Assembly: GCF_002563695.1 (NCBI RefSeq)
Contig: NZ_PDJI01000004.1
Coordinates: 1,302,001-1,366,000 of the forward strand
Origin: Georgenia soli
GTDB lineage: Bacteria; Actinomycetota; Actinomycetes; Actinomycetales; Actinomycetaceae
Direction of reading: 5' to 3'
DNA length: 64,000 bases
Below are positions 6,765-25,856 of this stretch, one piece after another. Every line of letters starts with the position of its first letter. Position 1 is the first letter of the stretch. The position numbers and the translations under genes are program-made. The notes beneath the pieces were generated by a model that made no database searches, had not been told where the DNA came from, and worked only from the letters and a program-made list of their open reading frames with translations.

Positions 6765-8303
6765 TCAGCGGGCCAGGACCGGCTCGGCGACCTTGAGGTC
6801 GACGCGGTTCTGGGCCTGGGCCACGTGCCTCCCGGCGAGCCGGCCGGAGATCATGGCCCAGCCGATGTGCAGGCCGTGGTTGAGGAGCTGCAGCCCGCCC
6901 TGCCCGGTGGAGCCGGCGGCCCACAGCCCGGGGACGACCTCTCCGTCCTCGGTTGTCACGCGGAGCTGGGTGTCCACCGCCAGTCCGCCGTCGGCGAGGG
7001 TGACGTAGGCGTTCATCGGGCCGAGGGCGTAGAAGGGCCCTTCCGTGACGCCCTCTCCGAGCCGCTCGCGGCCGAACTCGGCGTCCACGCCGGCGCGCAC
7101 CTGCTCGTTCCACCGCGCCACCGACGCCCTGAGTGCCGCCGGGGCGATGCCCGTGCTGGCGGCGAGCTCCTCGAGCGTGTCTGCCTGGTGGTAGACGTCC
7201 GGACGGAACCGCTTGTAGTCCTGCACGTAGGCGTACGCCACACCGGGGAAGGTGGAGACCGGGTTGGGCCATGCGGAGAACTTCTTGGCGACCTTCGCGT
7301 CGAAGATCATGTACCCCGTGTTGGCGTCCGTGGCCGCCACCGCGCGGGCCATCAGCTTGTCGGAGTCCTCGTTCGCCAGCCGCTGCCCGTCCGGGCCGAC
7401 CAGGATCGCCCCGGCGCCGTACATGGTGTTGTTCGGGCCGATCCAAGATGTCAGCGCGCCTCGGATGACGTACGCGAGCAGGCTCTTCGGGAGACGCTCG
7501 ACCACCACTCGCATGAGCTTCGTCAGCCCGGGGACCGAGGGGAGCATCTTGATCGGGTCCGGGCGGGTGGACGGCGCGAACCGCAGCCCCTCGTACAGGC
7601 GGTCCATCTGCATCATGACGCCGCCGGCCTCGGTGCCCAGGTAGAACCCGTCACCGGTGTTGTTCGGGTTCACCGGGGGCACCTTGGCCGCGGCCTCGCC
7701 GACGTACCTGGCCTTCAGCTCGGTGGAGGCGGAGTAGTCGCCGGTTGCGAGGATGACGCCGCGGCGGCCGAAGTAGTTCTGCCCGTTCGCGGAGGCGCCG
7801 ATGATCTCGCCGGCCGCGTTGCGCAGCAGCTTCTCCACGCGCATGGAGGTGTAGATGGCCACCCCGCGCTTCCTGCACTCGCGCAGCAGCGCCTCCCGGT
7901 AGGCCTTGGAGTTCGGGAGCACGTTGTGCATGCGCGGCTTCTCGTACGGCGGCTCCGGGGTGGGGCCGAGGAACTGCACACCGATGCTGGAGAGCCACTC
8001 CACCGTCGGCCCGGCGTTCTCGGCCAGGATCCGGCGCAGCTCCTTGTTCTCGCGCGCCTCGAACTCCCCGTTGGCAACCTTCATGTCCTCAACGAAGAGG
8101 TCGATGCTGTCGTTCACCCCCGCCCGGTACTGGTAAGAGGTGTTCGCGGCCGTGAAGGAACCGACCGACATCGCGGTCGAGCCGCCCACCTCGGCGCACT
8201 TCTCCAGGATGATGACGGAGGCCCCCGACGTCGCGGCCGAGATCGCGGCGCTCATGCCCGACCCGCCGCCGCCGATGACCAGGACGTCTGCCGTGTAGAT
8301 CAT
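6765..8303 (-). CDS. FAD_binding_2 flavoprotein 1 (fumarate-reductase/ketosteroid-dehydrogenase type)
   Basis: 512-residue flavoprotein. Residues 6-40 carry the dinucleotide fold VLVIGGGGSGMSAA followed by LEK and the phosphate-contacting GGSTAMS. The C-terminal FAD segment GLWAAGSTGQGGLQLLNHGLHIGWAM closes the domain. Such proteins insert or reduce a C=C bond next to a carbonyl or carboxylate. The ATG at 8303 follows GAGGAAC. It is the last of three tandem paralogues in an operon with SDR, NIPSNAP and MHS permease genes, so it probably dehydrogenates or reduces an imported organic acid. There is no signal peptide, so it acts in the cytoplasm. Confidence 0.82.
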   Translation of the reverse strand: MIYTADVLVIGGGGSGMSAAISAATSGASVIILEKCAEVGGSTAMSVGSFTAANTSYQYRAGVNDSIDLFVEDMKVANGEFEARENKELRRILAENAGPTVEWLSSIGVQFLGPTPEPPYEKPRMHNVLPNSKAYREALLRECRKRGVAIYTSMRVEKLLRNAAGEIIGASANGQNYFGRRGVILATGDYSASTELKARYVGEAAAKVPPVNPNNTGDGFYLGTEAGGVMMQMDRLYEGLRFAPSTRPDPIKMLPSVPGLTKLMRVVVERLPKSLLAYVIRGALTSWIGPNNTMYGAGAILVGPDGQRLANEDSDKLMARAVAATDANTGYMIFDAKVAKKFSAWPNPVSTFPGVAYAYVQDYKRFRPDVYHQADTLEELAASTGIAPAALRASVARWNEQVRAGVDAEFGRERLGEGVTEGPFYALGPMNAYVTLADGGLAVDTQLRVTTEDGEVVPGLWAAGSTGQGGLQLLNHGLHIGWAMISGRLAGRHVAQAQNRVDLKVAEPVLAR

Positions 8304-8333: not shown

Positions 8334-9770
8334 TCAGCGGGCGCCGGCGAGGGCAGCGGTCCCGACGGCCGGGTCCAGTCCTTCCGCGGAGCTCCCGACG
8401 GCGGTGCGCGCGGCCCGTGCGGCGGCCGCGCCTGCCCAGCGTCCGGTGATGTAGCCGGGCGCCAGTCCGCCGGCGTAGCCGTAGTTGGACAGTCCCCCGA
8501 TGTCGGCGCCCGCGGCGTACAGACCGGGGACGGGCCGGCCGTCGTGGTCGAGCGCCTCGCCGTCGGCGTTGGTTCGGATCCCGCCGAAGGTGAAGGTGAT
8601 GGACGGCTGGACCATCAGCGCGTAGAAAGGCCCGGTCTGCGGCGCCCGCGCCCCGGCCGCGACCGGGATCCCGCGGGCCACTCCCCCGCCGGCGCCGGCC
8701 ACGGCGGTGTACCGCTCGAGGGTGTCGCCCAGGTTGGCACGGTCGACGCCCCAGGAGGCGACGACGTCGAGCAGGTCCCCGAGCGTGTCGGCGACGGCGT
8801 GCGTCGCGCCCGCTTCCACGGCCAGGGCGAAGCGGTCGATCGTGCCCAGGCCGGGGAAGGGCTCCTCGGTGCCCTCGGTGCGGCGGACGTGGTCGTCGAA
8901 GATCAGCACGCCGCGCGCCTCGGGCTGGAAGGTCACCGCCTGGTTGAGCAGCTCGTCGCCCTGGGTCTCGTCGACGAACCGCTCCCCGCGCAGGTTCACG
9001 AGCACCGTCGAGCCGGAGTAGTACTGCGACGAGGGCAGGAAGTCCTGCGGCTCAAACCGGTTCACCGGGTGACCGATGAGGTGGCCGTAGAAGGTGCTCA
9101 TCGCCGTCGTCCCGCCGGCCCCGGCGGCACGCGCCAGGCGCAGCCCGTCGCCCACGCTGCCCGGGTTCGAGCGCAGCAGCAGCCGGTCGGCGTTCGGCCC
9201 GATGTGCCGGGTCAGCTCGTCCCGGGCGCCCTGGAACCCACCGGTGGTCAGGACGACGGCGGACGCGTCGTAGCGCACCAGGCGGCCGTCGGCCTCGCGG
9301 GCCACGACGCCGGTCACCCGCCTTCCGTCGTCGACAAGCGCGACGACGGCGGTGCCGGTGCGGGCCTCCCCGCCGGCGACGACGACCTCGTCCCGGCACC
9401 AGGCGAGGATCGCCTTGATGTCGGTGGAGTAGCCGATGCCGAAGGTCATGATGTCCCGCTTGGGCTCGTCAGAGACCCGCACCCCCGAGGCGCGCAGCTC
9501 GGCCAGCGCGTCCTCGTAGTCCGCCACGAGACGGCGGCCGAGGTCGAGCCGTCCCAGCGGGATGCGCGCCTGGTAGGCCTCGACGGTGGGGGCGGTCCAG
9601 AACATCCCGGCCGACAGGGCCGCCGACCCGCCGAAGGTGTCCTGCTTCTCCAGCAGGGCCACCCGGGCCCCGGCCCGCGCGGCGGTCATGGCGGCCGCGG
9701 ACCCGGACACGCCGGACCCGACGACCACGACGTCCGCTGTGCGGACCTCGTCGACATGGTGGTGGTTCAT
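8334..9770 (-). CDS. FAD_binding_2 flavoprotein 2
   Basis: 478 residues from the ATG at 9770, which has AAGGAG nine bases upstream; a longer open frame (to 9845) is judged untranslated. The fold VVVVGSGVSGSAAAMTAA, then LEK and GGSAALS, marks a family-2 FAD enzyme. The end (GLYAAGADIGGLSNYGYAGG) is the second FAD contact. It is clearly related to flavoproteins 1 and 3 but not a recent copy. It lies 30 bases upstream of flavoprotein 1 and 71 bases downstream of flavoprotein 3, within one transcription unit. The reaction is inferred to be desaturation or ene-reduction; the substrate is unknown. Confidence 0.82.
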   Translation of the reverse strand: MNHHHVDEVRTADVVVVGSGVSGSAAAMTAARAGARVALLEKQDTFGGSAALSAGMFWTAPTVEAYQARIPLGRLDLGRRLVADYEDALAELRASGVRVSDEPKRDIMTFGIGYSTDIKAILAWCRDEVVVAGGEARTGTAVVALVDDGRRVTGVVAREADGRLVRYDASAVVLTTGGFQGARDELTRHIGPNADRLLLRSNPGSVGDGLRLARAAGAGGTTAMSTFYGHLIGHPVNRFEPQDFLPSSQYYSGSTVLVNLRGERFVDETQGDELLNQAVTFQPEARGVLIFDDHVRRTEGTEEPFPGLGTIDRFALAVEAGATHAVADTLGDLLDVVASWGVDRANLGDTLERYTAVAGAGGGVARGIPVAAGARAPQTGPFYALMVQPSITFTFGGIRTNADGEALDHDGRPVPGLYAAGADIGGLSNYGYAGGLAPGYITGRWAGAAAARAARTAVGSSAEGLDPAVGTAALAGAR

Positions 9771-9841
9771 CACTTCGGGCTCCTTCGACGCTGGGCGCCT
9801 GGCTGCGCAGCGATCAGTGGCGGGAACGGCAGGTGGGAGGG

Positions 9842-11293
9842 TCACGCGACCGGGACGGCGTCGACCCGATCCGGGGCGGCAGGCTCGGCCGCGCCCGTCC
9901 GGTCGGTGACGAGCCGGTCGGCCGTCAGCCTGCCGGCGGCGTGGCGGGCCACGATGCCGCCGAACACGGCCCCCTTCCCGAGGGACGTGCCGGTCATGTA
10001 GGCGGCGCCGTGGAACCCGCCGGTGACCTCACCGATCGCGTACAGGCCCTCGATGACGTCGCCGTCGACGTCGACGACCTGGCCGGACGGGTTGATGGTC
10101 ACCCCGCAGTAGGTGGTGGTCATCAGCGCCTTGGCCGGGTAGGCGTAGTACGGGGCGGTGTCGATCGGGAGCAGGTCGCCCACCCCGTTGCACAGGTTCG
10201 TGCGCCCCACCTCGTCCTCGGCCTCGCCCGCCACGGCGGCGTTGTACCGGGCCACGGTCTGGACGAGCGCGTCCGGGTCGATGCCGGCGGCCTCGGCGAG
10301 CTCCTCGATGGTGTCGGCCCTGAAGACGTGCCCGATCTCCTCCAGGGTGTCGATGTCCTTCAGCGGGATGCCGCGGTGGGACTTCGCCCGCACCTTGGCG
10401 TCGAACACCTCGAAGCCCAGGCCCTCGGGCTCGTCGAGGACCACCCGGCCCAAGGTCTTGTAGTCCACGGACTCATCCACGAACCGGCGACCGTCCTTGT
10501 TCACGATGATCGCGCCCATGTAGTAGGCGGTGAGCAGCTCGTGGAACTCCTCCCCCGTCTCCGGGTGGGAGCCGTAGGTGGCGGAGACGAACGACATGTC
10601 GGCCATGCCCGCGCCGAGCTTCCACGCCATCTTGAGCCCGTCGCCGGTGTTGCCCTTCCCGCCGTAGGGGATGGCGGCGAGCTGCTCGGGGGCGAAGATC
10701 TTCAGCAAGTCCGTCCCACGGGAGAACCCGCCCGTGGCCAGCACCACCCCGCCCCGGGCGCCGAACAGCACCTCGCCGTCCGGGGTGTCCGCGACGACGC
10801 CGGTCACCCGGTCACCATCGCGCACCAGCCGCACCGCCCGGTGCTCCAGGTGCGTCTCGCCGCCCGCCGCTTCGAAGTCGCGGTGGAGGGTGGCCAGCAC
10901 GTCCTTGATGGCGGCGTTGTGGCCGCGCCGGGCGGACATCCCGGAGCTGATCTCGACCTCGCGGAACTGGACCCCGTGGTCCTTCAGCCACCGGTAGGTG
11001 TTCTCCTGGTTGGCCAGGTAGGCCTCCAGCAGGGCCCGGTCGTTGAGGTGCTCGCCGGCCTCGAGCATGTCGCTGAGGAACAGCTCGGCGGAGTCCTCGA
11101 TGCCCTGCTCGGACTGCTCCGGAGTGCCGGAGAAGGCGAACCAGCCCCCGCTCATCGCGGAGGACCCGCCCAGCTTCTCGGTCTTCTCCAGCAGGGCGAC
11201 GCTCAGGCCGGCCTCGGCGGCGGCGGTCGCCGCGGTCTGCCCGGCGATGCCGGAGCCGACGACGACCAGGTCGAAGGTGTGGGTGACGGACAT
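9842..11293 (-). CDS. FAD_binding_2 flavoprotein 3 (fumarate/urocanate reductase-like)
   Basis: 483 residues from the ATG at 11293 (MSVTHTFDLVVVGSGIAG); the 23 extra upstream codons look like leader DNA. FAD-binding loops: VVVGSGIAGQTAA, LEKTEKLGGSSAMSGG and GLYAIGEVTGGFHGAAYM. The last has the GGxHGA shape of soluble fumarate and urocanate reductases. RFVDES and the MTTTYCGVTIN stretch correspond to the substrate-facing part of that group. It follows the SDR gene by about 100 bases. Whether it reduces an alkene or oxidises the product depends on partners not seen here. Confidence 0.82.
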   Translation of the reverse strand: MSVTHTFDLVVVGSGIAGQTAATAAAEAGLSVALLEKTEKLGGSSAMSGGWFAFSGTPEQSEQGIEDSAELFLSDMLEAGEHLNDRALLEAYLANQENTYRWLKDHGVQFREVEISSGMSARRGHNAAIKDVLATLHRDFEAAGGETHLEHRAVRLVRDGDRVTGVVADTPDGEVLFGARGGVVLATGGFSRGTDLLKIFAPEQLAAIPYGGKGNTGDGLKMAWKLGAGMADMSFVSATYGSHPETGEEFHELLTAYYMGAIIVNKDGRRFVDESVDYKTLGRVVLDEPEGLGFEVFDAKVRAKSHRGIPLKDIDTLEEIGHVFRADTIEELAEAAGIDPDALVQTVARYNAAVAGEAEDEVGRTNLCNGVGDLLPIDTAPYYAYPAKALMTTTYCGVTINPSGQVVDVDGDVIEGLYAIGEVTGGFHGAAYMTGTSLGKGAVFGGIVARHAAGRLTADRLVTDRTGAAEPAAPDRVDAVPVA

Positions 11294-11395
11294 GGTGAAA
11301 ACTCGCTCTCTCGGTTCTGGGTGTACGGCCGGCCGCTCGCAGGGGTACACGGCCGGCCGCACGTCGGGGGGCGGCCGGTCAGCCGGAGGTGGACG

Positions 11396-12226
11396 TCAGC
11401 AGGTGAGCCAGCCGCCGTTGACGTCGAGGCTCGTGCCGGTGATGTAGGACGCCTGGTTGGAGACGAGGAAGGCGACGGCGTCGGCGATCTCCTCGGGCCG
11501 GGCGAACCGGTGCATGGGCACCTGGTCGAGCAGCGGACCCTCGGGCGGCACCTCGCCCATCATCGGGGTCTGCACGAAGCCGGGGGCCACCCCGTTGACG
11601 CGGATCCGGTACCCGGCCAGCTCGCGGGACAGGCTCGCCGTGAGGTTCTGCAGGGCAGCCTTCGACGCCGCGTACGCCACGGTCGAGGGCAGGAACGGCG
11701 GGAAGATCGCGTCCGGCGCCCCGCCGGTGCCGAGCTTGGCGGTGATCGACAGCAGGTTGACGATGCTCGCCGTCCCGTCCGTCGGCATGTAGCGGTAGGC
11801 CTCCCGGATCAGGAAGAACGGGGCGCTGACGTTGACCGCCATGACCCGGTTCCACTCCTCGTCGCTCATCTCGAAGAAGGAGATCTTGCGCCCGTCACGC
11901 TTGGGCGAGATCCCGACGGCGTTGACGATGACGCCGATGGGCGCCTGTGCGGCCGCGGCCTCGGCAAGCGCCCGGTTGACGTCGCTCTCCGTGAGGTCGC
12001 CGGAGAACCCGCGATGGTCGGCGCCGTCGACCTCGGGCAGCGTGGCCGCGGTCCGTTGGGCGGCCGCGGCGTCGGCGTCGGCGACGACGACGGCGTAGCC
12101 GGCCGTGGCGAGGCGGCGCGAGATCGCCGCGCCGATGCCACCGGCACCGCCGGTGACGATGGCGGTCTGGGTCAGGGTCGCCGTCGTCGACGGCTCGTGG
12201 ACGAGGGGCTCGGTCAGGGTTGCCAT
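11396..12226 (-). CDS. short-chain dehydrogenase/reductase (SDR) 1
   Basis: 276-residue classical SDR: cofactor loop TGGAGGIG after a 20-residue leader, NAVGIS in place of NNAG, catalytic Ser in LLSITA and catalytic YAASK. It should interconvert an alcohol and a ketone with NAD(P). An unusual insertion (about GTGGAPDAIFPPFLPSTV) lies between the Ser and Tyr and probably shapes the substrate pocket. The ATG at 12226 follows AAGGAG. It sits between the NIPSNAP gene and the flavoprotein genes, fitting an oxidation made before or after C=C chemistry. Confidence 0.88.
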   Translation of the reverse strand: MATLTEPLVHEPSTTATLTQTAIVTGGAGGIGAAISRRLATAGYAVVVADADAAAAQRTAATLPEVDGADHRGFSGDLTESDVNRALAEAAAAQAPIGVIVNAVGISPKRDGRKISFFEMSDEEWNRVMAVNVSAPFFLIREAYRYMPTDGTASIVNLLSITAKLGTGGAPDAIFPPFLPSTVAYAASKAALQNLTASLSRELAGYRIRVNGVAPGFVQTPMMGEVPPEGPLLDQVPMHRFARPEEIADAVAFLVSNQASYITGTSLDVNGGWLTC

Positions 12227-12256: not shown

Positions 12257-12622
12257 TCAGCTGTTCGAGAACGCCGTGTCGGCGTCGGTGACGGTGACGG
12301 GCAGCGACCTGATCGGCGAGAACGTCGTCGGGTACATGATCTTGTTCGCCATCGTCATGATCATCGGGCGGATGATGGACAGGCACTCCTGCCACCGCTC
12401 GTTCTTGGCGAGCTCGGCCCGCCGCGCCCGTCGGTCCTCCAGGTCGGTGTAGGCCCAGAAGTGGTTGAGCTCGTTCTGGGGCCCGAACTCGGTGACGAAG
12501 TACCCGAGGAACCCACCGAGAATCGGCTTCTGGGCCGGCAGGCCGATGTTCTCGTACGCGTCGAGGTACTCGGCCAGGCTGGCGCCGGTGTGCAGGACGT
12601 AGGTGCGCTGCTCGACGATCAT
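12257..12622 (-). CDS. NIPSNAP-family protein
   Basis: 121 residues that read as one NIPSNAP/ferredoxin-like alpha-beta domain: MIVEQRTYVLHTG at the start, then a central LNHFWAYTDLEDRRARRAEL. Bacterial NIPSNAP proteins often sit in catabolic operons; their function is not established. Its start overlaps the stop of the MHS permease gene by 4 bases (ATGA), so it is translationally coupled. Thirty bases separate it from the SDR gene. A structural or isomerase-like role in the same pathway is only an inference. Confidence 0.8.
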   Translation of the reverse strand: MIVEQRTYVLHTGASLAEYLDAYENIGLPAQKPILGGFLGYFVTEFGPQNELNHFWAYTDLEDRRARRAELAKNERWQECLSIIRPMIMTMANKIMYPTTFSPIRSLPVTVTDADTAFSNS

Positions 12623-14034
12623 CGGGCCACCTCCATCGGCGTGGTGCTGGCGGCGGGCGCAGCCGCCCCGGACGCCACCTCGTCGGCAGACACGTACCGG
12701 CCGAAGCGGTGGGTGCCGCCCTCGAGGGTCTTGCCGTCCCCCATGAGCAGCATGTTGATGATGGCGGCGACGATCGTGACGACCCAGAAGATCGTGATGC
12801 TGATGGTGCTGCCGCCGCTGAGCCCGGTCAGCCAGGAGGCGATGAACGGGGCGGGTGCCGCGAAGATGAGGTTCGCGCCGGTCAGGGCGAGCGCGGAGCC
12901 CGTGTAGCGCTCGTGGGTGGGGAAGGCCTCCGCGAACAGGGCCCCCTGGCCGGCGTTCCCGAACTGCGCGGAGACGAGGGCGAAGGCGACCATCAGCAGG
13001 GTGACGGGGAAGCTGCCCAGGTCGACGACCGCGAAGAACATCACGGAGGCGATCAGCGTGCCGATGGAGCCCACCATGAGGATCTTGCGGCGGCCGTAGA
13101 CGTCAGCCAGACGCCCGCCCCACCAGATGGCGATCACCGAGAGGAAGTTGGAGATCATGATGATGGTGAAGGTCTGGCTGCGCGTGAAGCCGTGGGTCGT
13201 CAGGTAGCTGATGCCGAAGACGGAGACGATGTAGAAGGTCAGGACGATCGGCGAGAAGGCCAGGATCAGGCGGAGCATTGTCACCCAGTGGGTCTTGATG
13301 ACCTGGGCCGGGCTGCTGGTCTCCTGCGCGAGCTCCTTCATGCCCTCCTGGTAGACGGGCGTCTCCTCGACCTTGAGGCGGATGTAGACGCCGACAGCGA
13401 CCAGGGCGATGCTGAGCAGGAACGGCACGCGCCAGCCCCACGACATGAAGGCCGCCTCGCTCAGCACCCCGGAGAGCACGGCGAGCATGAGGTTCGCGGC
13501 CACCTGGCTGATGGGCGACCCCATGGCCATGAGCGCGCCGTAGAAGGCACGGCGGTCGGTGGGGGCGTGCTCCATCGTCATCAGCTGGGCGCCGGTGGCC
13601 TCGCCGCCGAGGGCGAAGCCCTGGATGAACCGCATGACGACGAGCAGCAGCGGCGCGGCGAGCCCGATCGCCGAGTACGGCGGGAGCAGACCGATGATCA
13701 GGGAGGCGACGCCCATCGAGATGAACGTGGTGAGCAGCACCGTGCGGCGGCCGATCCGGTCGCCGAGGTGACCGAAGACGATGCCGCCCAGCGGACGGGC
13801 GAAGAAGCCGACGCCGAACGTGGCGAAGGAGGCGAGGATCCCCATCGCCGGGTCCAGCTCGTTGAAGAACAGCGCCGGGAAGACGGTGGCGGACATCGCG
13901 CCGTAGACGGCGAAGTCGAACCACTCGAGGGCGGACCCGAAGGTCCCGGAGACAACTGCCCGCTTGGCCTGGGGCGGGGCGGGCGTGGACGGACGCAGCG
14001 GGCGCCTGATGCGCGGCGAGGCGGTCTGACTCAT
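12619..14034 (-). CDS. MHS-family (metabolite:H+ symporter) MFS permease 1
   Basis: 471-residue permease, first gene of the IclR-linked operon. Seen: SALEWFDFAVYG and FGHLGDRIGRRTVL (MFS motif A), hallmarks of the MHS group that imports shikimate, dicarboxylates, citrate or aromatic acids with protons. About 12 helices. The start is the ATG at 14034 (MSQTASP), six bases after AAGGAG; the longer open frame to 14127 is leader. That leader and the first codons match those of SDR 2 almost base for base (aaggagtccccg-(A/G)TG-agtcag). The mRNA leader is about 180 bases long. Confidence 0.9.
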   Translation of the reverse strand: MSQTASPRIRRPLRPSTPAPPQAKRAVVSGTFGSALEWFDFAVYGAMSATVFPALFFNELDPAMGILASFATFGVGFFARPLGGIVFGHLGDRIGRRTVLLTTFISMGVASLIIGLLPPYSAIGLAAPLLLVVMRFIQGFALGGEATGAQLMTMEHAPTDRRAFYGALMAMGSPISQVAANLMLAVLSGVLSEAAFMSWGWRVPFLLSIALVAVGVYIRLKVEETPVYQEGMKELAQETSSPAQVIKTHWVTMLRLILAFSPIVLTFYIVSVFGISYLTTHGFTRSQTFTIIMISNFLSVIAIWWGGRLADVYGRRKILMVGSIGTLIASVMFFAVVDLGSFPVTLLMVAFALVSAQFGNAGQGALFAEAFPTHERYTGSALALTGANLIFAAPAPFIASWLTGLSGGSTISITIFWVVTIVAAIINMLLMGDGKTLEGGTHRFGRYVSADEVASGAAAPAASTTPMEVAR

Positions 14035-14219
14035 CGGGGACTCCTTCGTCGGACGATCAGCGGAGTGTCGGGGTGAGGTCGTGCGGGCCGAGCGGCGGGG
14101 CCGGCGACGTGCCGGGGGTGGTGGCACGTGAGGCCCCGCTTCACCGGACGGGCCGGACGGACCGTCGGGGGTGCTCAGGAGCGGGAACGGACTTTGGTCC
14201 CGGTTGTGCTGTGAGCACG

Positions 14220-14249
14220 AAGGTAGGTCGTCGCTTGCGCTTCACGCAA
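14220..14249 (-). promoter_or_regulatory. promoter of the MHS1-NIPSNAP-SDR1-flavoprotein operon
   Basis: On the minus strand TTGCGT (14249-14244) and TACCTT (14225-14220) are spaced by 18 bases. The -35 is inside the right arm of the first IclR-type palindrome. The same -35 type, -10 and spacing recur in front of SDR 2 at 17642-17613, which is strong support that both are real promoters. Confidence 0.72.
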
Positions 14250-14281
14250 GAGTCGCTACAGTTATTGCGTGCAGCGCAATA
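14234..14281. promoter_or_regulatory. paired IclR-type operator, site pair A
   Basis: Two palindromes with 5-base spacers: CTTGCG-CTTCA-CGCAAG (14234-14250) and TATTGCG-TGCAG-CGCAATA (14263-14281). Their centres are 30 bases apart, about three helical turns. The first covers both divergent -35 boxes, the second covers the iclR start codon. A matching pair lies at 17626-17675. Confidence 0.8.
14235..14262 (+). promoter_or_regulatory. iclR promoter
   Basis: TTGCGC (14235-14240) and TACAGT (14257-14262) have a 16-base spacer. Transcription would begin close to 14269, which is the G of the iclR GTG, so the message may lack a leader. The -35 is shared with the palindrome that controls the divergent operon. 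Confidence 0.6.
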
Positions 14282-15030
14282 CCAGCGTGGATCGCGTCGA
14301 GTCGGTCCATCGCGCCCTGGTCCTTCTCAAGCTCATCGGCGAGCGCGGCTCGCTCAGCGTGACGGAGGCCGCGAAGGCGTTGGAGGTCAACCCCTCCACC
14401 GCCCAGCGGCTCCTCGTCACGCTCGTCGGCGACGGGTTCGCCCGCCAGGGCGAGCGCAAGCGCTACGAGCCGGGCGCGGAGCTCCTCCGCCCCGGCGCCT
14501 CCCACGCGATACCGCCGCTGCGGGCCAGGCTACGGCCGCACCTGGAGCGGCTGTTCGAGCGCGTCGGCGAGACCGTCCACGTGGCGACGCTCGTCGGTAC
14601 GGAGATCCACCACCTCGACGGCGTCGAGGCCGTCGGGCACCCGTTGCGCTTCGGCCTGCGCATCGGCGTCCGGCTGCCCGCCCACCAGACCTCGGCGGGC
14701 AAGGCGATGCTCGCCACCCTCGCCGAGGACGACGTGGACGCCCGGTACGAGGTGGCGATGAACAGTCCGCGCGGCACCGCGATGCGGGTCGAGCTCGCGG
14801 ACCTCCACCAGCAGCTGGCGAAGGTCCGCCGGCAGCGCGTGGCGACGAACTTCGAGGAGAGCGAGCCCGGAGTCGCGGCGTTCGCCACCTCGATCGGGGT
14901 GATCGACGGCGAGCGGGCGGCCTTCAGCATCGCCATGCCCGTCGCGCGCTTCACGAAGGCGGACCTTCCGAAGTTCGTCAGCGCCCTGGTGCGCACCGCC
15001 GACGAGGCCGCCGCCGCGCTCCTGCTCTGA
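14269..15030 (+). CDS. IclR-family transcriptional regulator
   Basis: 253 residues: a winged-helix N-terminus (SVHRALVLLKLIGERGSLSV, then VNPSTAQRLLVTL recognition helix) and an IclR effector domain (residues about 80-250, with TVHVATLVGTEI and GVRLPAHQTSAGKAML). It sits divergently from the MHS1 operon and 2.4 kb from the second arm, and both arms have the same operator pair, so it is the obvious controller. The GTG at 14269 lies inside the second palindrome and has no Shine-Dalgarno; an in-frame GTG at 14287 is the alternative start. The inducer is probably the pathway substrate. Confidence 0.93.
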   Translation: MQRNTSVDRVESVHRALVLLKLIGERGSLSVTEAAKALEVNPSTAQRLLVTLVGDGFARQGERKRYEPGAELLRPGASHAIPPLRARLRPHLERLFERVGETVHVATLVGTEIHHLDGVEAVGHPLRFGLRIGVRLPAHQTSAGKAMLATLAEDDVDARYEVAMNSPRGTAMRVELADLHQQLAKVRRQRVATNFEESEPGVAAFATSIGVIDGERAAFSIAMPVARFTKADLPKFVSALVRTADEAAAALLL

Positions 15031-15099
15031 GCGCCGGGTCAACCAGGCTCGCTCCCCGAGCGCCGGGCCGACGCCGTCCGCCGTCGTGCACAAGGCACG

Positions 15100-15142
15100 A
15101 CGGTGAGGTTTCGAGGCCGGAGAAGCATCGAAACCTCACCGT
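15100..15142. terminator. 15-bp perfect stem-loop between convergent iclR and MHS2
   Basis: ACGGTGAGGTTTCGA (15100-15114) pairs fully with TCGAAACCTCACCGT (15128-15142) around a 13-base loop. It lies between the 3' ends of two convergent genes and probably ends transcription from both sides. No T-run follows. Confidence 0.65.
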
Positions 15143-15223
15143 TGCCGGACGGCTGGGCGCCGGCCGGCCCGGAGGCCGCCCGGCGCCCGGTCACGGATCA
15201 AGCTCGACCGCAGCTTGTGCTGC

Positions 15224-16558
15224 TCAGGCCTGGCGCGAGCCCAGCTGGTCGAGCGGCACCTTGTAGGTCTCGCGCGCAGTGGCGACGGCGATGGCAGAGA
15301 CGATGCAGGCGCAGGTCACCAGGGCGGCCGCCGGCCACCAGGCGTTGCCGTTGGCGGAGGAGACCGCCTGGATGATCGACGGCGAGAACCCGGTCAGCAC
15401 GATCCCCAGCTGCAGGCCGATCGCCATCCCGCTGACCCGGAACTTCACGTTGAACATCTCGCTGAAGAACACGGGGTAGACGGCATTGGTGGCCCCGAAG
15501 GCGACGGTGATGCACAGGAACATGCCGAGGTAGATCATCGGGACGTTCGCCTCGCCGACGGCCCAGAAGAACTGCCACACCGAGACGGCACCGACGAGGT
15601 TGCCGCCGATCAGGACCGGCTTGCGGCCGATCCTGTCGCTGAGCGTGGCGAACAGCGGCTGGGTCACGAGCGCGGTCGCGTACCCGAAGATCGCGGTCCA
15701 CAGCATGACGCTCGCCTCGATGCCGACCACGTTGGTGGCGTACGTGAGCCCGTACACGGGCACGACCGAGCTGATGACGATGAGGAACGCCGCGAAGATC
15801 ACCCGCACGACGTCGCGAGGCTGGTGCCGGAGCAGCTCGCCCACGGGCACCTTGGCGACCGCGTCCTGCTCCTTGCGCTCGGCGAAGACCTCGGGCTCCT
15901 CGATCGTCCGGCGAAGGATCAGGCCGAAGACCACGATCACGGCGCTGAACCAGAACGGCACACGCCAGCCCCAGGACAGCATCTGCTCCTCGGGCAGCGC
16001 CGCGACGGCGAGGAAGGCGAACGTCGCGAGGATGTAGCCGACCCAGATGCCGTTGATCATCCAGGACGTGTAGAGGCCGCGCCTGCCCTCCGGGGCGTGC
16101 TCGAGGGTGAGCGAGGTCGATCCGGCGGCCTCGCCACCGACCGAGAGCCCCTGGAAGAGCCGGAGCACGACGAGAAGGGCCGGGGCGAGGATCCCGACGC
16201 TGTCGTAGGCCGGCAGGCAGCCGATCAGGAACGTCGCGATGCCCATGACGAGCAGGGTCGCGATCATGACGTTGCGCCGCCCGAGCCGGTCCCCGTAGTG
16301 CCCGGCGAGGAAGCCCCCGAGGGGTCGGGCCAGGTAGGCGACGCCGTACGTGGCGAGCGACAGCAGGAGGCCGGTCGCTCCGGCGTCGGGGAAGAACACC
16401 CTGCTGAACACGAGGGCCGAGGCCGACGCGTAGATGTACATGTCGTAGTACTCGAGGGCCCCGCCGAAGAAGCCGGCGAGGGAGGAGCGCTTGCCCTGGT
16501 TGGTTCCGGGCCTGGTGGGGGCGGCCGTGGCCGGAGGCTTGACGGTGGTCGTCGCCAT
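15224..16558 (-). CDS. MHS-family MFS permease 2
   Basis: 444-residue proton-coupled permease of the same group as MHS 1: GGALEYYDMYIYASASALVF, then GHYGDRLGRRNVMIAT (motif A). About 12 helices. The ATG at 16558 follows AGGAGAAGGA. It is the second gene after SDR 2 (83 bases), under the second paired operator. Having two MHS permeases under one IclR regulator suggests two related acids, or import of the substrate and of a second intermediate. It is only moderately similar to MHS 1, so it is not a fresh duplicate. Confidence 0.9.
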   Translation of the reverse strand: MATTTVKPPATAAPTRPGTNQGKRSSLAGFFGGALEYYDMYIYASASALVFSRVFFPDAGATGLLLSLATYGVAYLARPLGGFLAGHYGDRLGRRNVMIATLLVMGIATFLIGCLPAYDSVGILAPALLVVLRLFQGLSVGGEAAGSTSLTLEHAPEGRRGLYTSWMINGIWVGYILATFAFLAVAALPEEQMLSWGWRVPFWFSAVIVVFGLILRRTIEEPEVFAERKEQDAVAKVPVGELLRHQPRDVVRVIFAAFLIVISSVVPVYGLTYATNVVGIEASVMLWTAIFGYATALVTQPLFATLSDRIGRKPVLIGGNLVGAVSVWQFFWAVGEANVPMIYLGMFLCITVAFGATNAVYPVFFSEMFNVKFRVSGMAIGLQLGIVLTGFSPSIIQAVSSANGNAWWPAAALVTCACIVSAIAVATARETYKVPLDQLGSRQA

Positions 16559-16641
16559 TGACTGGTCCTTCTCCTGGAGTGGTAGGTGACTCTCGCCAGC
16601 GGTGCTGGCTCTCGGGGGTGCTTGGTGGGCGTGAGCCGAGC

Positions 16642-17439
16642 TCAGTAGTCGGCCCGACCGCCGGACAGGTCGTAGACGAAGCCCGTGGTGAACGACGCCT
16701 CGGGCGAGGTGATGTAGGAGACGAGGGCGGCCACCTCGGCGACCGTGCCGAACCGTCCCATCGGGATCAGCGATCTCTGGACCGCCTGCCGCTCCTCGGT
16801 CATGCCCGCGATGAGCGGCGTCTCGACAGAGGCAGGGGCGACGGCGTTGATCGTGACACCGGAGGCCGCGTACTCCTTGCCCACGGACTTCACGAGCCCG
16901 ATCACGCCGGCCTTGGACGCCGAGTAGGCAGCCATCTGCGGGTTGCCCTCCTTGCCGGCGATGGACGCGACGTGCACGATGCGGCCGTAGCCGGCGGGTA
17001 CCATCCGCGCGAGCGCGGCACGGGTGACGGCGAAGGCACCCCCCAGGTTCAGACCGACGACCCGGTCGAAGGTTGCCTGCGTCGTCTCGACGGTCGGCTC
17101 GACGGGGCCCAGGATCCCGGCGCAGTTCACGACGATCTCCAGGCCGCCGAGCTCACGGGCAGCGCTGTCGATCGCTTCCTCCACCGACCCGGCATCGGTG
17201 ACGTCGATCGCGCCGCGGTGCACCTTTCCCGAGCCCTGCGGCCACCTCGCGTCCGCGAGGTCGAGGGCGGCGACGGCGTGGCCAGCGCCGGCAAGACGGG
17301 CGACGACCGCGGCGCCCATGCCGCTGGACGCCCCGACGACGACGGCACGTTGCGCCGTCGGCACCGGTACGCGGTCCTCGTCGGCACGCGCGGTCCTGGT
17401 GGATGGCGTGCGGGTGTCGTTCGTGAGCGTCTGACTCAC
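16642..17439 (-). CDS. short-chain dehydrogenase/reductase (SDR) 2
   Basis: 265 residues from the GTG at 17439, preceded by AAGGAG at the same distance as in MHS 1. Classical SDR marks: VVGASSGMG cofactor loop, NCAGILG, catalytic Ser in HVASIAG and YSASK. The C-terminal SPEASFTTGFVYDLSGG is typical of FabG-like SDRs. A longer open frame reaches 17580 but runs into the leader. It is the first gene of the second arm of the IclR island, with MHS 2 behind it. An NAD(P)-linked alcohol/ketone step is expected; the substrate is unknown. Confidence 0.88.
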   Translation of the reverse strand: MSQTLTNDTRTPSTRTARADEDRVPVPTAQRAVVVGASSGMGAAVVARLAGAGHAVAALDLADARWPQGSGKVHRGAIDVTDAGSVEEAIDSAARELGGLEIVVNCAGILGPVEPTVETTQATFDRVVGLNLGGAFAVTRAALARMVPAGYGRIVHVASIAGKEGNPQMAAYSASKAGVIGLVKSVGKEYAASGVTINAVAPASVETPLIAGMTEERQAVQRSLIPMGRFGTVAEVAALVSYITSPEASFTTGFVYDLSGGRADY

Positions 17440-17612
17440 CGGGGACTCCTTCGTCGATCGGATCAGCACACGGGGGCGGCCGGGCTCGTGCCGGCCCAAG
17501 AGCGAGCCAGGGGTGGCGGCTGCTGCGGAGCACGGGGCGCTGTGCGAGCGCCCTGTGGCAGGGACGGTCGATGTCCCCATCGGGACCTTGGCCCCCAGTT
17601 CTGGTGGGCATG

Positions 17613-17642
17613 AAGGTAGGAGACCGGTTGCGCGCGGCGCAA
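17613..17642 (-). promoter_or_regulatory. promoter of the SDR2-MHS2 operon
   Basis: On the minus strand TTGCGC (17642-17637) and TACCTT (17618-17613) with an 18-base spacer. This is the same arrangement as at 14249-14220, and the flanking GAAGGTAGG is identical in both. The -35 is in the right arm of a palindrome, so repressor binding would block RNA polymerase. Confidence 0.72.
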
Positions 17643-17675
17643 CCCCTCTGCCATTTGTTTGCGCCTACCGCAACA
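17626..17675. promoter_or_regulatory. paired IclR-type operator, site pair B
   Basis: GGTTGCG-CGCGG-CGCAACC (17626-17644) is a perfect 7-bp-arm palindrome. TTTGCG-CCTAC-CGCAAC (about 17658-17674) is the second, with five-base core arms. The centres are 31 bases apart. Core, spacer and pair spacing match site pair A, 3.4 kb away. Confidence 0.8.
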
Positions 17676-17861
17676 ACCGGCGTCAGGCAGCGCAGGCAGC
17701 ATGTGCTTCTCCGGCCGACATGAGAGCGATGGATCCGTGAGGCAGCCACAGGACCGAGCCCCGCTCGCACCGCTCTTGCACCGCTGGCGTCCCGAGGAAC
17801 TGACACCGTGGTCGGACGACTGGCGTGACCAGACCGCGATGCCGCGGAACCGGGACTGCCG
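17676..17861. other. intergenic stretch between the IclR island and the sulfur regulon
   Basis: About 185 bases with no convincing gene, between the second operator pair and the 3' end of the NiCoT gene. A short plus-strand frame is open here but has no start signal or recognisable family. No hairpin terminator was found. Confidence 0.4.
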
Positions 17862-18968
17862 TCAGCCCGCCGCGCCCGGCGCCCAGCGCTCCTCGAGCCG
17901 GCCGAACCGCCACACGGCCAGGCTCAGCAGCCACGCGCCGACGAAGAGTCCGACCAGCCCGTAGCCGACGGCGCCCAGGTCCAGCCCCGCGACCCAGGCG
18001 AGGAACCCGCCGGCCGGGTCGACGTGCTCGGCGAGGAGCTGGATCAGCACCACCGACCCGATGCCCAGAGCCGCGATCACCGAGAGCACGGTGACGGTGA
18101 GGTTGTAGTACACCTTGCGCACCGGGGCGAGGAACGCCCAGCCGTAGGCGCGGGCCATGAGCACGCCGTCGGCGGCGTCGAACAGGCTCATGCCGGCGGC
18201 GAAGAGCACCGGCAGCACGAGGATCGCGTACCAGGGCAGGGTGAGCGCCGCGGTGCCGCCGGCGAGCACGAGCAGCGCAACCTGGGTGGCGGTGTCGAAC
18301 CCGAGCCCCATCAGCAGCCCGACGGGGTACATGTGCCACGGCCTGGTGACGCGGCGGGTGAAGCGGCCGAGCAGCCTGGCCATGACGCCGCGGCTGTTGA
18401 GCAGACGCTCGAGCTCGCGCTCGTCGAGGGTGGCGCCGCGCATCTCCCGGAACACCCGCACGATGCCGCGGACGGAGCCGAGGTTGAGCAGGCCGATGAG
18501 GATGAGGAACGTCCCGGCCACGATCGAGCCGACGGTGCCGAGCGTCTGCTGGAGGGCCGACCCGCCGTCGGCGACCGGTCCGGCCACCGCCCGCACGCCC
18601 AGCGCGAGCAGCAGGGCGAGGCCGAAGACGACGCTGGAGTGGCCGAGCGAGAACCAGAACCCCACGCTCAGCGCCGGGCGGTCCTCGCCGACGAGCTTGC
18701 GGGTGGTGTTGTCGATGGCGGCGATGTGGTCGGCGTCGAAGGCGTGGCGCACACCGAGGAGGAACGCGGTCACGCCCAGGCCCACGCCGAAGACCCCGGC
18801 GCTGCCGACGGTGAGCCGCTGGGGCGCGACGGCGAGGACCAGCACGCCCCAGCCGACGAGGTTGAGGAGCAGCACGGTCGCGGCCATGCCGGCGAGGGAC
18901 CGCTTCTCGGCCCGTCGGAGGCGCGCCCGTCCGGCGGTGGCCGGCGCGGAGATGGCTGGGGTGGTCAC
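17862..18968 (-). CDS. nickel/cobalt permease, NiCoT family
   Basis: 368-residue membrane protein with about eight helices. The NiCoT signature RHAFDADHIAAIDN begins at residue 74, followed by the family motifs FSLGHSSVVF and LGFDTATQ. It imports Ni2+ or Co2+ across the inner membrane. The GTG at 18968 follows AAAGGA. It lies 19 bases after the TauE gene as the last gene of a rhodanese-MBL-TauE-NiCoT unit, so it appears to share the sulfur-responsive promoter at 21579-21596. No cobalamin or nickel riboswitch is visible before it. Confidence 0.92.
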   Translation of the reverse strand: MTTPAISAPATAGRARLRRAEKRSLAGMAATVLLLNLVGWGVLVLAVAPQRLTVGSAGVFGVGLGVTAFLLGVRHAFDADHIAAIDNTTRKLVGEDRPALSVGFWFSLGHSSVVFGLALLLALGVRAVAGPVADGGSALQQTLGTVGSIVAGTFLILIGLLNLGSVRGIVRVFREMRGATLDERELERLLNSRGVMARLLGRFTRRVTRPWHMYPVGLLMGLGFDTATQVALLVLAGGTAALTLPWYAILVLPVLFAAGMSLFDAADGVLMARAYGWAFLAPVRKVYYNLTVTVLSVIAALGIGSVVLIQLLAEHVDPAGGFLAWVAGLDLGAVGYGLVGLFVGAWLLSLAVWRFGRLEERWAPGAAG

Positions 18969-23560: not shown

Positions 23561-25417
23561 TCAGGCCTGGATGACCACCGGGACGTCGTTCGCCGTCAGC
23601 TTCCAGTCCGTCGTGGAGAACGAGCTCGGATCGATCTGCCCCTGCTCACTCACCCAGTCGATGATGAGCTGCCGGATCTCCCGCTGGGCGTTGTAGACCA
23701 CCGGCGCCGTCGTCACGCCCGGGAAGTTCCCGCCGCCGGACTGCCGGTAGTTGTTGATCGCGATGACGAACCGCTGCGCCGGGTCGATCAGGTCGTCGCC
23801 GTACCTGAGGTTCTTGATCCGCGCGCCGACCGGGTGGGCGATGTCGATGTCGTACGTCAGGCGCTCGGTGTAGCCCGCCATGGTGTCGTAGTTGTAGTCC
23901 GGGGTGCCGTTCGGCGCGGTGTCGGTGACCGCGTTCGTGACGTCCGCCGGGGCGAACGGTCCCGCGCCGGTCACCTGCTTGAAGTAGCGGGCCGAGAACT
24001 CCAGGTAGGCGCGCACCTGCTCGCCGGTCAGGACGATGCCGAGCAGCGTGTTGTCGAAGATGTACATGCCCGCCACGTCGCGCACGGTGACCGCGCCGGC
24101 CGGGACCGTCGCGTCCTTGTTGAAGGGAGCCGAGATCGACAGGATCGGCAGCGCCGCCTCCGGTGTGCCCGCGAGCGCCCGCGCCACCTCGGCCGACTGC
24201 ACGTGGTTGACGAAGTCCATCGCGGCGGTGTCCTCGTACCGTGCCGTCGCCGCCGACATCGCCGCCGCGGACGTGCCGATCACCGAGTTCACGTACCTGC
24301 GCACGGTGGCGTGGTCGCCGGTGAGGATGGCCGCGATCGCTGGGTCCTCCGGCACGGTGTTCGCGTTGAGCAGGTGCGCCCCCATGGCGGCGACCTGCCA
24401 CCGGCCGCGGACCTTCACCAGGTCCAGGTCCATGACGGTCAGCCGCATGCCCCAGCGCAGCGGCTCCGAGAGCAGCACCTGCTTGCCCGTCTGCTTGTTC
24501 GTGACGAAGCGCTGCGGGATCTCCAGGTGCGCGTGGCCGACGAGGATCGCGTCGATGCCCGGCACCTCCTCAGCCAGCAGGGTGCTCGCGTTCTCCGGGT
24601 AGGGAAGGGCGTCGCCGTAGGAGCTGGAGGTGTTCGGCCCGGAGTGGCAGGAGACGATGACGATGTCGGCGCCGGCCGCCCTCATCTGCGGGACGAAGAC
24701 CTTCGCCTGCTCCACGATGCCCGGGAAGCGCACCTTGCCGTCGACGACCGCCTTGTCCCAGATGGCCACGCCCGGCGTGACCAGGCCGAGCACGCCGACC
24801 GTGATCTTGCGTCCGCCCTCCGGGTTGACGGTGTGGAGGCTGTAGGGCTGGTAGACGGGCTCGTCGGTGTGCCAGTCGACCGCGTTGGCGCACAGCAGCG
24901 GGAAGTTCAGCTGCCGGTCGAAGGTGTCGAGCACGTCGAGCCCGTAGTTGAACTCGTGGTTGCCCATCGCGGCGGCGTCGTAGCCGATGGCGTTCATCGC
25001 GGCGGCCATGGGGTGGACGTGCCCGCCGGTGATCGGGTCGATCTTGGCGTAGTAGTAGGACAGCGGGGTGCCCTGGATGGTGTCGCCCGCGTCAAGCAGC
25101 AGGCAGTTCTCCGCGCCGCGCTCCTCCCGCATCGCGGCGACGAGCGTGGAGATCTTCGCCAGCCCGATGTCGTTGTTCGCCGAGTCGGTGTACTCCGCGT
25201 CCTTGAAGTAGTCCCAGTTGAAGACGTTGCCGTGGGTGTCGGTCGTCCCCAGCACGGTCAGCCGGTAGGTGTGCTTGTCCGCGGGCGGCGCGGCGTGCGC
25301 GGGCGCTCCGGTCAGCGCGGTGCCCGCGACGCTCAGGGCGGCCAGCTGCAGCAGCCGCCGGCGGCTCACCTCCGTGCCGAGCATCGCCTGGTGGGCGGAC
25401 AGAGCCTTGTGGTCCAT
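23561..25417 (-). CDS. Tat-exported bifunctional 5'-nucleotidase / 2',3'-cyclic phosphodiesterase
   Basis: 618 residues. The N-terminus has a Tat signal (VSRRRLLQLAALS, cleavage near AHA), so the folded metalloenzyme is exported. Metallophosphatase motifs: GTTDTHGNVFNWD, LLLDAGDTIQG, MGNHEFNYG and VSCHSGPN. A 5'-nucleotidase C-terminal domain follows (IDPAQRFVIAINNYRQSGG). Length and domain order fit CpdB/UshA-type enzymes that release nucleosides and phosphate from extracellular nucleotides. The gene stands alone between the repeat-bearing intergenic region and the bidirectional terminator. Confidence 0.93.
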   Translation of the reverse strand: MDHKALSAHQAMLGTEVSRRRLLQLAALSVAGTALTGAPAHAAPPADKHTYRLTVLGTTDTHGNVFNWDYFKDAEYTDSANNDIGLAKISTLVAAMREERGAENCLLLDAGDTIQGTPLSYYYAKIDPITGGHVHPMAAAMNAIGYDAAAMGNHEFNYGLDVLDTFDRQLNFPLLCANAVDWHTDEPVYQPYSLHTVNPEGGRKITVGVLGLVTPGVAIWDKAVVDGKVRFPGIVEQAKVFVPQMRAAGADIVIVSCHSGPNTSSSYGDALPYPENASTLLAEEVPGIDAILVGHAHLEIPQRFVTNKQTGKQVLLSEPLRWGMRLTVMDLDLVKVRGRWQVAAMGAHLLNANTVPEDPAIAAILTGDHATVRRYVNSVIGTSAAAMSAATARYEDTAAMDFVNHVQSAEVARALAGTPEAALPILSISAPFNKDATVPAGAVTVRDVAGMYIFDNTLLGIVLTGEQVRAYLEFSARYFKQVTGAGPFAPADVTNAVTDTAPNGTPDYNYDTMAGYTERLTYDIDIAHPVGARIKNLRYGDDLIDPAQRFVIAINNYRQSGGGNFPGVTTAPVVYNAQREIRQLIIDWVSEQGQIDPSSFSTTDWKLTANDVPVVIQA

Positions 25418-25551
25418 TGCCTCTCCTCATCGAGATACGCGTCCAGCGTCGTGCTGGGTGCTCTGCTCGTGGCAGTGGACCGAAAGTAGCGGCGCCAGAT
25501 CGGCAGGACGGGCTTAACGGAGAGGTGTCGTTCCGACCATTCGCGTCGGAT

Positions 25552-25687
25552 AACCGCGGACGACGGCGCAGGCCGGCCTCGGCATGACCGCGGACGACGA
25601 CGCAGGCCGGCCTCGGCATGACCGCGGACGACGACGCAGGCCGGCCTCGGCATGACCGCGGACGACGACGCAGGCTGGCCTCTCTGA
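25552..25687. repeat. 34-bp tandem repeat, four copies
   Basis: Units start at 25552, 25586, 25620 and 25654. Copies 2 and 3 are identical; copy 1 differs by a few bases; copy 4 diverges in its last bases. Unit core: ACCGCGGACGACGACGCAGG then CCGGCCTCGGCATG. There are no spacers, so it is not a CRISPR array. 34 is not a multiple of 3, which argues against a coding repeat. Confidence 0.9.
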
Positions 25688-25758
25688 GCTACGCGTGCAA
25701 GGTCTGTCTTTTCCGAAGGGTGAGCAGCGCGCGACGACGACGAGCTGTGCTGGCACCG

Positions 25759-25856
25759 ATCCAGCCCTGCTCACGCCCGCGCGCGACGGTGGAGCGGTCG
25801 CCCCACGCTCGCACGAATCCAGCCCTGCTCACGCCCGCGCGCGACGGTGGAGCGGT
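25759..25856. repeat. 40-bp direct repeat pair, period 58
   Basis: The 40 bases at 25759-25798 recur exactly at 25817-25856 (both begin ATCCAGCCCTGCTC and end GTGGAGCGGT), separated by 18 unrelated bases. It lies just after the 34-bp array. Confidence 0.9.

Follow-up and report, generated by a model that had tools for sequence, protein, structure and literature searches.

The locus raises the question of which genes an IclR-family regulator of Georgenia soli controls, and through which operator sequence. The window, the whole stretch of 64,000 nucleotides that was analysed, encodes this regulator on the plus strand (iclR, 14269..15030; Pfam domains IclR_C and HTH_IclR above cut-off), and its placement between two arms, as described in a first-pass annotation of the sequence, was borne out: operons A and B both run leftward, with iclR reading rightward between them. 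Operon A (minus strand) starts with a shikimate-transporter-like MFS metabolite:H+ symporter gene (12619..14034, where ATG 14034 follows AAGGAG by eye), followed by genes for a NIPSNAP-domain protein (12257..12622), a short-chain dehydrogenase (SDR; 11396..12226), a flavocytochrome c/fumarate-reductase-type flavoprotein (9842..11362) and two further FAD_binding_2 flavoproteins (8334..9845 and 6765..8303). Operon B (minus strand) encodes a further SDR (16642..17439, where GTG 17439 follows AAGGAG by eye) and a further MFS metabolite:H+ symporter (15224..16558). Of the NCBIfam matches displayed for the enzymes and symporters of the two operons, just one, of a flavoprotein to flavocytochrome c, exceeds its cut-off.

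Family membership suggests that the substrate is an alicyclic or aromatic acid, since the set combines shikimate-transporter-type symporters and alcohol dehydrogenases with relatives of flavoproteins that desaturate rings; literature and structure searches for the identity of the pathway yielded family-level hints only. In Amycolatopsis, a phenol-hydroxylase-like gene comes after iclR. Two repeats were also seen in the window: a perfect 15-base inverted repeat (ACGGTGAGGTTTCGA, 15100-15142), possibly a two-way terminator, in the gap where iclR and the operon B symporter gene converge, and, at 25366-25774, peptide-like stretches (ACVVVRGHAEAGLRRRP) that recur across overlapping reading frames and suggest a short tandem DNA repeat.

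The candidate operators are four palindromes of the form TTGCG-N5-CGCAA, reported earlier as two pairs spaced by 30 and 31 bases. This observation is confirmed: all four are exact, they lie within 1-2 bases of the positions first given, and the pairing holds, with predicted operators A1 (TTGCGCTTCACGCAA, 14235..14249) and A2 (TTGCGTGCAGCGCAA, 14265..14279) 30 bp apart and B1 (TTGCGCGCGGCGCAA, 17628..17642) and B2 (TTGCGCCTACCGCAA, 17659..17673) 31 bp apart. A1 and B1 would be the proximal sites, and A2 and B2 the distal sites, of operons A and B, respectively. The exact word has four copies in the 4,273,660 bases of the genome, all within the window, against two copies of a backwards control pattern, while single sites with up to two mismatches show no excess in the window (28 found, 35.6 expected). 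Seven of 11 further genomes contain at least one exact single copy (0-4 per genome), with 0-2 per genome beyond the iclR cluster and 0-5 for the reversed control. Since single copies also occur elsewhere, the information sits in the pairing and position of the sites, not in the single word.

A genome scan for paired sites, proposed along with the palindromes, was extended to three other Georgenia genomes (G001-G003) at up to three mismatches. In G. soli, the matches are the iclR and SDR promoters, plus a combination of the left site of the window with a weak sequence 31 bases upstream (three mismatches). The iclR promoter was matched in all four genomes and the SDR promoter in three (G. soli, G001 and G003, not G002); one simple-repeat place in G003 also matched with three mismatches, and a reversed paired control gave no match in any of the four. 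The weak upstream partner, at 14204-14218, was rejected as a third operator, having no counterpart at that distance in the homologues by eye.

Site conservation was then assessed in 14 related loci, ten of which (L037-L046) carry an iclR that is 55-87% identical, with two such genes in the Microbacterium locus L046. The closest named iclR-product homologues are those of Georgenia sp. EYE_87 (87%), G. ruanii (83%) and G. thermotolerans (73%); genomes G001-G003 were taken to be the same as these three sources and were counted once. The proposed search for conserved sites showed that a pair precedes iclR in all 11 further homologues, giving 12 of 12 promoters from Georgenia, Arthrobacter, Amycolatopsis and Microbacterium when the window is counted. 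The spacing is 30 or 31 bp and the iclR-side site is exact in every one, while the counterpart of A1 has no mismatch in four, one in four and two in four (L039-L041 and L044). No pair was found at L047-L050, where the iclR homologues are 32-41% identical. All three loci that have a separate SDR-MFS arm (the window, L037 and L038) also have the second pair, spaced by 31 bp with one mismatch per site in L037 and by 30 bp with two (B1) and no (B2) mismatches in L038. Neither the arm nor the second pair occurs in the 20.7 kb of L045, and L039, whose sequence stops about 0.1 kb past iclR, is uninformative on this point.

The operon A genes have best matches of 72-96% identity in three Georgenia and five Arthrobacter loci, with no NIPSNAP match among the matches listed for L041, whereas the Amycolatopsis locus (L042) retains the SDR and two of the flavoproteins only. 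L046 is rearranged, so that the operon B SDR and symporter stand in a leftward operon adjoining iclR. Elsewhere in L046 (5351-11776), a second IclR of the same type has its own operator pair and is divergent from genes led by a periplasmic-binding protein, resembling an ABC uptake system. No match to the regulator was found in a plasmid collection at E 1e-40, and in an order-wide sample of 396 genomes the only match at E 1e-60 came from the G. soli genome itself, which means rare rather than absent, given the homologues in the four genera above.

In each arm, the inner palindrome had been proposed to supply the −35 box of a promoter with an 18-base spacer and an identical TACCTT −10 box, and this was confirmed on the minus strand in both. 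The −35 hexamers, which match TTGACA weakly, are TTGCGT for operon A (14249-14244, from the CGCAA half of A1) and TTGCGC for operon B (17642-17637, from B1), with the −10 boxes at 14220..14225 and, by alignment of the arms, 17613..17618. Reading leftward, the distance from the proximal palindrome to the start of a TANNNT motif is 9 nt in 14 of the 15 arms and 8 nt in the remaining one, so the GCAA half always gives a −35 hexamer TTGC-N2 with a 17-18-base spacer. This half of the proximal site is invariant (12/12 left sites and 6/6 arm-B sites) while the opposite half drifts, which fits a double role as operator and −35 element. If transcription is assumed to start 7 nt past the −10 box, the proximal and distal sites of both operons would lie at about −36 to −22 and −66 to −52, respectively.

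The operon leaders (14026-14061 and 17430-17465) have ACGAAGGAGTCCCC and the first codons GAGTCAGAC (Ser-Gln-Thr) in common, pointing to a possible old duplication of the promoter-leader region. Both leaders also contain a short inverted repeat (GGGACCAAAGTCC or variants of it) at 14189-14201 and 17582-17596, approximately 11-25 nt past the predicted starts of operons A and B. By eye, it recurs in Georgenia leaders and, with changes, in three leaders from Arthrobacter (listed for L037, L038, L039-L041 and L045) and was not seen in the leaders of L042-L044. An anti-Shine-Dalgarno role for this repeat fails in the Arthrobacter leaders and was rejected, as were a riboswitch in the operon A leader (no Rfam match at E 0.1 over 13900-17900) and a structured leader, which folds no better than shuffled sequences (z −0.36; 72 of 200 shuffles fold equally well or better).

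Duplication bears on the suggestion that the palindromes are functionless, having arisen by chance or from a repeat, with the arms alike because a promoter region was copied. The likeness does extend beyond the palindromes to the leader sequence, the first codons and the −10 region, but palindrome halves are kept across genera while spacers and flanks have diverged, and no further exact copies occur anywhere in the genome, so we assign this explanation a negligible probability. Sequence comparison instead supports a putative regulon.

That regulon had been described as linking two operons, which agrees with the sites found at both and is incomplete, as the A pair also covers the promoter and start codon of iclR, a probable third target. 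The TTGCG half of A1 provides a plus-strand −35-like box (TTGCGC), from which a 16-base spacer leads to the −10 box TACAGT (14257..14262), 6 nt before a GTG at 14269 that lies within A2. With the transcription start assumed as above, the two sites would fall at about −34 to −20 and −4 to +11. In all 12 iclR promoters the right palindrome reads TTGCGTG, with its GTG in frame with iclR and 8 to 23 codons ahead of the first conserved helix. An in-frame stop lies upstream of this GTG in all 12, with no other start between in 11, the exception being the first iclR of L046, where a start codon also lies in frame three codons before the GTG. A TANNNT motif ends 6-7 nt before the GTG in 11 of the 12 promoters (the second iclR of L046 lacks one at that distance), a geometry that leaves no room for a ribosome-binding site and is, judged by sequence alone, that of a leaderless mRNA. 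At arm B, where no iclR starts, the spacer never begins with TG (0/6 sites). The conserved in-frame GTG, the TANNNT spacing and the contrast with arm B indicate that iclR very probably starts at GTG 14269, that its mRNA is probably leaderless and that the gene is probably autoregulated. GTG 14287 was dropped as a start codon because the in-operator GTG is kept in frame and because 7 of the 12 genes have no later start codon before the HTH.

The right half-site, CGCAA, therefore would double as coding sequence for Arg-Asn/Lys. All 12 genes use CGC for this Arg, against 46% CGC across the same genes, and the untranslated left part of the start-codon site, TTGC, is likewise invariant in the 12 promoters, which together argue for a constraint on the DNA and not merely on the protein.

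The genome-wide restriction of the exact word to this locus, the conservation of the sites, their frame with iclR and the geometry of the promoters were read from sequence, and from these we infer binding, the tetramer, repression over activation, the transcript ends, the inducer and the class of substrate. The regulator is tied to the sites because a pair precedes all 12 iclR genes of this type and the second pair accompanies the SDR-MFS arm. We consider it highly likely that dimers of IclR (14269-15030) bind each pair and control, most probably by repression, operons A and B and iclR itself. One dimer would occupy each palindrome, and the dimers of a pair, separated by roughly three turns of the helix and facing the same side of the DNA, would form a tetramer. 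In the A pair, A1 would overlie both the operon A −35 box and the iclR −35-like box, with A2 over the predicted start of iclR transcription and translation; in the B pair, B1 would overlie the operon B −35 box. Because the sites lie over promoter elements, bound protein would most likely block RNA polymerase at all three promoters. The block would be relieved by an inducing substrate that the two symporters import and the dehydrogenases and flavoproteins oxidise, and the leaderless iclR mRNA would begin with codons that form the right half of its own operator.

The same regulator on the same sites could instead activate operons A and B with its substrate, in the manner of PcaR or PobR, and repress only iclR. 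TphR is an activator, as are several relatives in the PcaR/PobR group. The operator of TphR has the same core as the palindromes described here, the best NCBIfam match of the window protein is PcaR/PcaU/PobR (TIGR02431), albeit at 107.5 bits against a cut-off of 284.75, and the poor −35 boxes are of a kind that an activator could make up for. However, with the transcription start assumed above, the proximal sites would span about −36 to −22 of the operon A and B promoters, where collision with polymerase would be expected, so we regard activation as rather unlikely, though by some way the most plausible alternative. Another transcription factor might also bind the palindromes and happen to regulate iclR and its neighbours, a proposal that draws on binding by the window's IclR being deduced from DNA sequence. 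This seems very improbable, given that the pair keeps company with this type of iclR across four named genera, that distant iclR paralogues have different words at the same start-codon position, and that the motif type fits the IclR-family operators described in a survey of the family (PMC8222616). Repression of three promoters by the IclR of the window remains the preferred reading. It would give an uncharacterised IclR clade, present in several actinobacterial genera, a concrete operator that is conserved and a defined regulon of two operons, and would offer a direct handle toward the substrate of the SDR/flavoprotein/symporter cluster.

A start codon within the operator fixes the N-terminus of the regulator and would make the operators of relatives predictable from protein sequence. 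We lean slightly towards a general rule for this IclR subfamily, in which the first codons of the gene are the operator, an operator half can be read from the N-terminus, and bound protein blocks both the transcription start and the start codon. Among the best 120 of 164 homologues, 62 begin M/V/L-x-R-N/K; some of the others have C-V-I-R-N/K behind a longer annotated start and some M-R-N. Of 240 homologues listed, 88 begin with the Arg type (Arg-Asn/Lys) and 66 with the Gln type (Gln-Asn/Lys). If the rule is true, the start codon (GTG or ATG) and the codons up to the fourth would hold the right half-site, conserved for DNA binding, and in many uncharacterised actinobacterial IclR proteins Arg-Asn/Lys would imply CGCAA or CGGAA and Gln-Asn/Lys CAGAA.

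Fourteen less similar IclR loci (L009-L022, 38-50% identical), whose sites were read by eye, have other words at this position, mostly TTCTG or TTCCG with CAGAA or CGGAA and some other variants. An in-frame start codon lies inside a palindrome-like site in 12 of the 14 (not L018 or L022; L021 was counted by eye and not flagged by the script), and a second site 31 bp upstream was identified by script in four and by eye also in L013 and L014. All 14 proteins have His in the recognition helix where the window's protein has Gln. Across the 240 homologues listed, Gln-helix proteins have 61 Arg-type and one Gln-type N-termini and His-helix proteins 15 and 64, so that 15 of 119 His-helix proteins carry the Arg type. 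Strong co-evolution of helix and operator was nevertheless rejected: a tree of 141 of the 240 proteins, limited to Gln- or His-helix proteins with a readable Arg/Gln signature, has three changes of the helix residue and 12 of the N-terminal type, support from independent pairs is not significant, and in the six His-helix paralogues where an upstream partner site is visible, that site still ends in GCAA, like that of the window. Given so few independent events and the retained GCAA, no co-evolution is claimed, and the helix/word contrast appears to be mostly a contrast between clades.

No paper on this regulon was found in a literature search covering few subscription journals, and the regulon appears to be new and well supported, with a mechanism already known for the family. 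Assignment to the IclR family is clear (PF09339, 41.6 bits, cut-off 22; PF01614, 103.8 bits, cut-off 24), whereas besides PcaR/PcaU/PobR the protein also scores below the cut-offs of the BhcR (95.6/350 bits), IclR (80.6/380), KdgR (79.9/275) and AllR (48.4/406) equivalogs. According to the survey of Suvorova and Gelfand (2021, PMC8222616), IclR-family operators are palindromic and may stand in tandem, with site centres peaking at −3 to +1 of the gene start and tandem sites mostly 18-22 nt apart (two turns), three and four turns being overrepresented to a lesser degree. The group 1 consensus given there is GKTYCRYW3-4RYGRAMC, with subgroups. The sites described here resemble that form in their short inverted half-sites (TTGCG) around a short, 5-base centre, with C/R at bases 4-5, in the phasing of tandem sites and in lying near the gene start. 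They differ at the third base of the WTT-11-AAW half, which is G rather than the consensus Y (12/12 right and 12/12 left sites of the iclR pair, 5/6 arm-B sites), in pairing at three turns and not at the survey's commonest spacing, and in a site centre 3 nt past the first base of the start codon.

Within the G. soli genome, a paralogue (G000 C4:3760747-3761475, L016, 48% identical) likewise has two palindrome-like sites 31 bp apart and its start codon inside the downstream site, but that site reads TTCCG-N5-CAGAA and its helix has His for Gln. TtgV of Pseudomonas putida (2XRN/2XRO), which according to the survey binds DNA as a tetramer and contacts it through Ser48, Thr49, Gln51 and Arg52 (PMC8222616), has a helix S-T-x-Q-R that aligns with S, T, Q and R here, the helix Gln of the window's protein matching Gln51; the whole-protein relation is distant (E 1e-15), and TtgV controls efflux, not catabolic operons. 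The operator listed in Table 1 of the survey for TphR, also an IclR-family protein, from the terephthalate system of Comamonas sp. E6 (TTTTTGCGCATAGCGCAAAAA; PMC8222616), has the identical core TTGCG-N5-CGCAA. This likeness concerns the operator alone: genus, genes and presumably inducer differ, and the sites of the Georgenia regulon stand in pairs at 30-31 bp.
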